DNA of 35,787 nucleotides from contig JAGVHQ010000011.1 of the NCBI GenBank assembly GCA_020056565.1, forward strand, positions 1 through 35,787, written 5' to 3'. Source of the stretch: Candidatus Berkelbacteria bacterium. Its GTDB lineage: Bacteria > Patescibacteriota > UBA1384 > JAGVHQ01. The notes beneath the pieces were generated by a model that was not told the DNA's origin, did no database searches, and saw nothing but the letters and a program-made list of their open reading frames with translations. Positions 1,644 through 2,233 of this stretch are shown in pieces. Within the stretch, counting starts at the first letter, position 1. Each line of letters begins with the position of its first letter. A program made the translations under genes and the position numbers.

Positions 1644-1910
1644 ATGTTTTGGGTCTAGGCGATATATAACTCAGAGGCAGAAAAGTATTACATCGGGCAG
1701 ACTGATAATCTTCAGAAACGTTTACGGCTCCATAACAACCACGGGTTAGGCGGTTATACTTCAAGATTTGCGGGTGAATGGAAATTGATTCATAAAGAGT
1801 CAGTTGCCACTCGCTCGGAAGCTCTGGCAAGAGAAAAACAACTGAAGAGTTTCCGTGGCCGAGAGTTCATTAAGAAGAAATTACAATATTCCTCCGTAGC
1901 TCAATGGTAG
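1644..1910 (+). pseudogene. GIY-YIG endonuclease (UvrC-like N-terminal family), interrupted by TAG
   Basis: Reading from ATG 1644 gives MFWV, a TAG stop (1656-1658), then AIYNSEAEKYYIGQTDNLQK and on through a complete short GIY-YIG domain (AIY ... KYYIG, then QKRLRLHN, a GGYTSRF segment, and SEALAREKQLKSFRGREFIK) typical of single-domain proteins of about 80-90 residues. In relatives the TAG position is normally Tyr or another residue just before the GIY-like strand, so one base change (TAT/TAC to TAG) explains the break. No usable start codon follows before the catalytic motif. The frame runs into the 5' end of the intact tRNA-Asn and stops inside its D arm (1908-1910), so the last residues (YSSVAQW) are tRNA-encoded. 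It lies between two copies of the tRNA 5' half, suggesting a mobile or once-mobile nuclease associated with this tRNA. A leaky stop or sequencing error cannot be excluded. Confidence 0.75.
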
Positions 1911-2233
1911 AGCGGCTCCCTGTCGCGCAGCGACCCTGAGCGCAGTCGAAGGGTCCAAAAATGGCAGCTTCCCGCCGAAAGGCGGGTTGAAAAACGAGGT
2001 GAACTCGGGGAAACCCTTCTAGGGTAATCCCGAGCCAAGCCCGTCACTTTTTATAAAAGTGCCGAGGAAGGTGTAGAGACTATCTCGCAAGAGAGTACCC
2101 CGACGTTTCAGTTGGGGGAAGCGCCTCGCCCCTTACTTGTACAAAGTGTGGGGATGATATAGTCCACTCCCGTGGCAACATGGGGTTATGTGTAAGGAGA
2201 AGGTTGCTGGTTCGAGTCCAGCCGGAGGAGCCA
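1890..2233 (+). tRNA. tRNA-Asn(GUU) gene interrupted by a group I intron
   Basis: 5' exon 1890-1923: acceptor TCCTCCG, D arm GCTC-AATGGTA-GAGC, anticodon strand GCTCC, then C-T-G-T (positions 32-35). 3' exon 2193-2233: T-A-A (36-38), GGAGA, variable loop AGGTT, T arm GCTGG-TTCGAGT-CCAGC, acceptor CGGAGGA, discriminator G and an encoded CCA. Joining gives anticodon loop CTGTTAA, anticodon GTT, and a body with the usual tRNA-Asn features (TCC...GGAGCCA). The acceptor, D and T stems pair fully; the anticodon stem has 4 pairs and a G27-A43 mismatch at its base. The mature tRNA would be 75 nt with CCA. The intron falls inside the anticodon, between positions 35 and 36, so splicing is essential for decoding. 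It is the only intact copy among several fragments at this locus. Confidence 0.88.
1924..2192 (+). other. group I self-splicing intron (IC3-like) in tRNA-Asn
   Basis: 269 nt, obeying group I rules: the exon ends in U (1923) and the intron ends in G (2192). Visible core: P4 CTCGGG (2004-2009) with CCCGAG (2029-2034); P5 ACCCT/AGGGT around TCT (2013-2025); the J6-like CCGAGCCAAGCC (2030-2041); R element AGGTGTAGAGACTA (2069-2082); S element GATATAGTCC (2156-2165); and P7 pairing GACTAT (2078-2083) with ATAGTC (2159-2164). The GCCAAGC and AGGTGTAGAGACTA strings match my recollection of the Azoarcus tRNA-Ile intron. P1 can form between exon CTGT and GCAG at 1927-1930 or 1964-1967, with U.G at the splice site. 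A palindromic repeat (1932-1955) sits in the P1/P2 region, and a hairpin CCCGCC-GAAA-GGCGGG at 1971-1986 resembles P2. No ORF inside; it would need no protein of its own. Confidence 0.88.

Follow-up and report, generated by a model that had tools for sequence, protein, structure and literature searches.

Group I introns in bacterial tRNA genes have classically been described in tRNA-Leu(UAA), tRNA-fMet, tRNA-Ile(CAU) and tRNA-Arg(CCU) of cyanobacteria and proteobacteria (PMC8450103, PMC4033280, PMC5733544). Further cases have been claimed for cyanobacterial tRNA-Gly and tRNA-Lys, and Asn is not named as a host tRNA in these reviews and surveys. In CPR bacteria, group I introns were reported in some tRNAs of circularised genomes (Lui et al. 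2021, PMC8172020) and in the 16S and 23S rRNA, where they often occur with LAGLIDADG endonucleases (Tsurumaki et al. 2024, PMC11270868). Finally, a 2025 preprint announces in its title a novel insertion site in Patescibacteria tRNA genes and, judging from that title, probably covers the 35/36 Asn site described below.

The locus analysed here belongs to a Candidatus Berkelbacteria contig, of which a stretch of 35,787 nt (hereafter the window) was examined. A group I intron of 269 nt was found at positions 1924-2192 of the + strand, and the Rfam model Intron_gpI (RF00028) matches 1937-2185 of the same strand over its full length (model positions 1-253) with 64.1 bits (E = 3.4e-14), above the curated cut-off of 50 bits, the match including the P3-P8 core with its P, Q, R and S elements. 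This search had been proposed in an earlier sequence-only reading, in which the R and S elements were also paired as P7 and the exon and intron were said to end in U and G, respectively. All of these features were recovered: the pseudoknotted P7 is formed by GACTAT (2078-2083) with ATAGTC (2159-2164), the last exon base is a U (1923) and the last intron base a G (2192). RNA folding of 1888-2233 gave -141.4 kcal/mol, which is better than each of 100 shuffled sequences (z = -4.2). In the minimum-energy structure, the four tRNA arms (acceptor, D, anticodon and T) are formed together with P1 to P6 and P8 of the intron.

No tRNA was found by ARAGORN in the raw, unjoined window. Once 1923 is joined to 2193, the same program returns a tRNA-Asn(gtt) of 75 nt with a canonical cloverleaf and an encoded CCA, split between positions 35 and 36. 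The 5' exon (1890-1923) corresponds to tRNA positions 1-35 and ends in CUGU, while the 3' exon (2193-2233) runs from position 36 to the CCA and is immediately followed by a terminator-like hairpin and a T run (2233-2271). The joined exons carry a GUU anticodon and an Asn-like acceptor stem (UCCUCCG/CGGAGGA) with G73. The intronless tRNA-Asn of a relative of the same class (G015; CTCCCTGTTAAGGAGAAGGTTGCTGGTTCGA) has 31 bases identical to the joined exons across the junction, and a pattern search indicated that the loop of intronless relatives reads CTGTTAA.

Several joints near 1923/2193 also yield a loop acceptable to ARAGORN. The only serious rival lies two bases upstream (1921 joined to 2191), where the U/G rule is equally obeyed and a 7-base loop accepted by the program would expose a UGU (Thr) anticodon. 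That this is the true junction is extremely unlikely and it was discarded, because the acceptor stem UCCUCCG with G73 resembles that of bacterial tRNA-Asn and differs from those of the three intact Thr tRNAs of this genome, because the loop of intronless relatives reads CTGTTAA, and because the invariant U-G wobble of P1 (see below) falls at U35. The earlier assignment of the joined exons to a tRNA-Asn split at 35/36 by a group I intron is borne out by the Rfam match, the cloverleaf, the U/G rule, P7, covariation in 60 sequences, the intronless relative and the lack of a second tRNA-Asn in the assembly (see below).

Covariation was assessed in an alignment of 60 introns of at most about 285 nt with short exon flanks. 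For the whole structure, 86.9% of the cells are paired versus 68.5% in shuffles, 708 cells are changed on both sides versus 258, and the pairing score collapses when partners are slid by one to three columns. P2, P3, P4, P7.1, P7.2 and P8 were all found to covary. In the window intron, the P2 hairpin occupies 1971-1986 (97.5% of cells paired, with covariation at 6/6 pairs), and the two strands of P3, placed by fold, alignment and covariation for the first and by alignment and covariation for the second, lie at 1995-2001 and 2122-2128. The domain composed of P4, P5 and P6, which contains the P and Q elements, extends over 2005-2072 (Rfam alignment and covariation). As for P7, five of its six pairs are invariant in relatives, the 5' strand being the R element and the 3' strand, located by the Rfam alignment, the S element. 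The interval 2084-2117, which lies after the 5' strand of P7 and before the 3' strand of P3, is occupied by two hairpins, P7.1 (2084-2093) and P7.2 (2098-2117), and all 10 of their pairs covary. P8 (2129-2153) was defined by alignment and covariation, and P9 (2169-2184), a hairpin with a GCAA loop, by the Rfam alignment and covariation.

P1 is short and consists of four exon-guide pairs and two intron-internal pairs. Its 5' strand (1920-1925, from the fold) combines the exon CUGU with the intron bases CG, and its 3' strand (1962-1967) is the internal guide sequence UGGCAG. The exon CTGT, the guide GCAGC and the U-G pair at the 5' splice site are invariant in 60/60 aligned introns. The first intron base lengthens P1, in covariation with the nucleotide just 5' of the guide (GC 20, CG 18, AU 15, GU 2 and unpaired 2). 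Because CTGT and GCAGC are invariant while the exon base preceding CUGU varies freely among tRNA-Asn introns, the guide most likely reads only loop bases 32-35.

Overall, these data make it very likely that the window contains a group I intron inserted between U35 and U36 of the sole detected tRNA-Asn(GUU), whose splicing would be directed by the guide and which would be a retained, ORF-less copy from a family spread by an HNH endonuclease (see below). In the transcript, which is presumably expressed and spliced in vivo, the guide GCAG (1964-1967) would pair with the exon CUGU (C32-U33-G34-U35). The first step would be an attack after U35 by a guanosine bound in P7; the freed U35 would in turn attack behind the last intron base (G, 2192), ligating the exons as CUGUUAA to give the mature tRNA-Asn. 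The reaction is predicted to be autocatalytic, and a protein splicing cofactor may be needed. Since only the invariant anticodon loop would be read, the guide should tolerate any anticodon stem and suit other GUN tRNAs, and the tRNA-Tyr(GUA) gene of this genome likewise harbours a relative of the intron with an identical guide.

When GTDB species genomes were scanned with a sequence pattern, at least 113 loci matched. The listed scan matches and the loci of relatives together provided at least 108 distinct introns that join to a tRNA-Asn(GUU) with a paired anticodon stem at the same site; all 108 follow CTGT and 108/108 end in G. Among the matches listed, the hosts are mostly Patescibacteria, with about ten Omnitrophota, three Elusimicrobia and one Marinamargulisbacteria. 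The arrangement is thus real but common, more than 100 related species sharing this type of intron at this position. Asn had been regarded as an unfamiliar host, which holds insofar as it is not among the classical Leu, fMet, Ile and Arg hosts, but this number of introns and the title of the 2025 preprint show that Asn is no exotic single case.

Within the class to which the window belongs, an intronless tRNA-Asn was detected by pattern in 23/55 genomes and a split one in at least 8. Such a patchy distribution is as expected for an element that would be mobile or repeatedly lost. A class pattern placing the S element next to GTAA was too strict and recovered only 3/55 genomes; a looser phylum-wide pattern was uninformative and matched almost every genome through other tRNAs. 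Relatives of this class also have group I introns in tRNA-Phe, tRNA-Met and tRNA-Lys, several of them apparently located after U33 (L201, L208, L210, L211, L212, L218, L225, L227, L228, L235 and others). Automatic assignment of the hosts of these other introns left the register ambiguous at some loci and did not succeed for most rRNA introns; clear cases only were used.

Introns longer than 500 nt account for 31 of the 108. In nearly all of these the guide is located about 280-380 bases from the intron start, versus mostly 5-40 elsewhere, because an ORF of about 90-150 codons occupies the P1 loop. Such P1-loop ORFs, found in about 30 of the 108 introns, display an HNH-like motif (CxxCGY, HH, CANCHRE), and three of them appear truncated or frameshifted. 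One of two proteins tested matched Pfam HNH (PF01844), with an E-value of 5.6e-4 and a score just below the cut-off. The family was probably spread by the endonuclease encoded in the P1 loop. No endonuclease ORF was found in the 269-nt intron of the window, which is therefore not itself of the endonuclease-bearing (mobile) type. At the place where relatives have the HNH gene, its P1 loop contains a 24-nt hairpin (1932-1955, + strand) built on the repeat CCCTGAGCGCAGTCGAAGGG, which recurs at 2381-2400. A short palindromic repeat, CCCTGAGCGNAGTCGAAGGG, is present both in this loop (1934-1953) and at 2381-2400, with 0.01 occurrences expected by chance. The simplest history would be that the endonuclease gene was lost and that a small repeat later entered the tolerant loop. 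The ORF-less copy would have persisted because its loss would require a precise deletion. The window intron is best read as a degenerate, ORF-less member of a mobile family, with past homing presumed, whose guide would read only the invariant anticodon loop.

A remnant resembling a GIY-YIG endonuclease (PF01541, E 3.9e-14) lies just upstream of the tRNA (1656-1898); its reading frame is interrupted by a stop codon close to the first motif and continues into the tRNA gene. Partial copies of the same tRNA flank the intact one, namely a 5' half at 1583-1626, with the palindrome TCCGCCAGCTGGCGGA in place of its D loop, and a 3' end at 2415-2432. At 2284-2295, 12 nt of the T arm are repeated in inverted orientation. 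The flanking fragments look like what remains of a tRNA that was disrupted when an insertion introduced a complete copy.

The assembly (804,583 bases in 64 contigs, 91.4% complete) gave 45 tRNA matches, all intact and covering 18 amino acids, Asn and Tyr being the two that are missing; a "Pyl" call of ARAGORN was counted as tRNA-Arg(UCU) after reading of its loop. A direct search for an uninterrupted tRNA-Asn with the CTGTTAA pattern was also negative in this assembly, which is about 91% complete, the missing 9% leaving some doubt. The statement that the split gene is the only tRNA-Asn copy is thus upheld by inventory and pattern within the assembly, and an intact copy could sit in the missing 9%. 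A tRNA-Tyr(GUA) split at 35/36 was detected on contig 9 (4985-5203, minus strand; L001), where CTGT is followed by a 215-nt group I intron and then by AAATCAGC; no intact tRNA-Tyr was found in the assembly (about 91% complete). Both amino acids without an intact tRNA therefore have a group I intron after CUGU in the anticodon loop. The Tyr intron shares the GCAGC guide with the Asn intron but lacks P7.1 and P7.2. Among the best 22 matches of the Asn intron, the closest are Asn introns of other species, with about 70% identity, and the Tyr intron is absent; recent copying between the two introns of this genome is therefore unsupported.

The fragments and the GIY-YIG remnant described above, together with a genome that is 91% complete, could also be taken to indicate a dead copy, whose core is degraded or cannot fold because of the insertion in the P1 loop, while the missing 9% of the genome contains an intact tRNA-Asn. 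We consider this very unlikely, since the core helices are all intact, the P, Q, R and S elements are canonical and the exons make a perfect cloverleaf with an encoded CCA. In addition, 18 amino acids have intact tRNAs, and Asn and Tyr, the only ones without, are both present as intron-bearing genes. Interruption of the only detected tRNA-Asn gene might otherwise suggest that the intron has been kept for regulation of Asn decoding in a reduced epibiont, for instance by guanosine nucleotides or growth state. This too seems improbable, if slightly less so than a dead copy: no regulatory feature was found, the distribution is patchy with intronless tRNA-Asn in 23/55 class members, and a mobile element that has lost its endonuclease is a simpler account. 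The sequence-only reading had stated that splicing would control whether AAU/AAC codons are read; that splicing would be required for this follows from the sole detected gene, but regulation is not indicated.

The preferred reading thus remains that of a well-formed member of a widespread family which, as far as its sequence indicates, interrupts the only detected tRNA-Asn gene. When an essential single-copy tRNA is split in its anticodon, the ribozyme would become indispensable to the cell, and a guide reading only the anticodon loop would make it simple to predict which tRNAs are open to these introns. Standard finders overlook tRNA genes that are interrupted, and genomes such as this one therefore appear to be without tRNA-Asn and tRNA-Tyr. 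More tentatively, and with the odds rather against so broad a statement, 35/36 of GUN tRNAs could be a separate intron niche, in which one HNH-mobile family enters several essential single-copy tRNAs per genome (here Asn and Tyr) and crosses Patescibacteria, Omnitrophota and Elusimicrobia, so that whole codon sets would depend on ribozyme splicing.

Introns of tRNA-Leu, tRNA-Ile and tRNA-Arg belong to subgroup IC3, which is not known to have P7.1/P7.2. Two such hairpins in the segment separating the 5' strand of P7 from the 3' strand of P3, as in the window intron, would be a mark of subgroup IA rather than IC3. Because about a quarter of the aligned same-site relatives are without these covarying hairpins, two structural classes may share the tRNA-Asn site. 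Alignment rows such as L022, L040, L045, L049, L111, L113 and L120 have no P7.1/P7.2 and a P4 of ACGGT/ACCGT, at the same tRNA-Asn site and with the same guide. The second class, having the same site and guide, suggests separate origins or a replacement of the core.

When compared to known systems, the window intron resembles the classical tRNA introns in lying in the anticodon loop and in its presumed removal by group I splicing. It differs from them in its host, which is tRNA-Asn(GUU) at 35/36 instead of Leu, Ile, Arg or fMet, in its guide and in its extra hairpins P7.1 and P7.2. The rRNA introns of CPR bacteria occur in the same phylum and three such matches were also found in this genome, on the 23S rRNA contig (contig 36; L003, L004 and L005, two of them under the Rfam cut-off). 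They are hosted by rRNA and often associated with LAGLIDADG endonucleases, whereas the tRNA-Asn family has HNH ORFs. The 2025 preprint, from its title, likewise concerns the same phylum and the same class of introns in tRNA genes.
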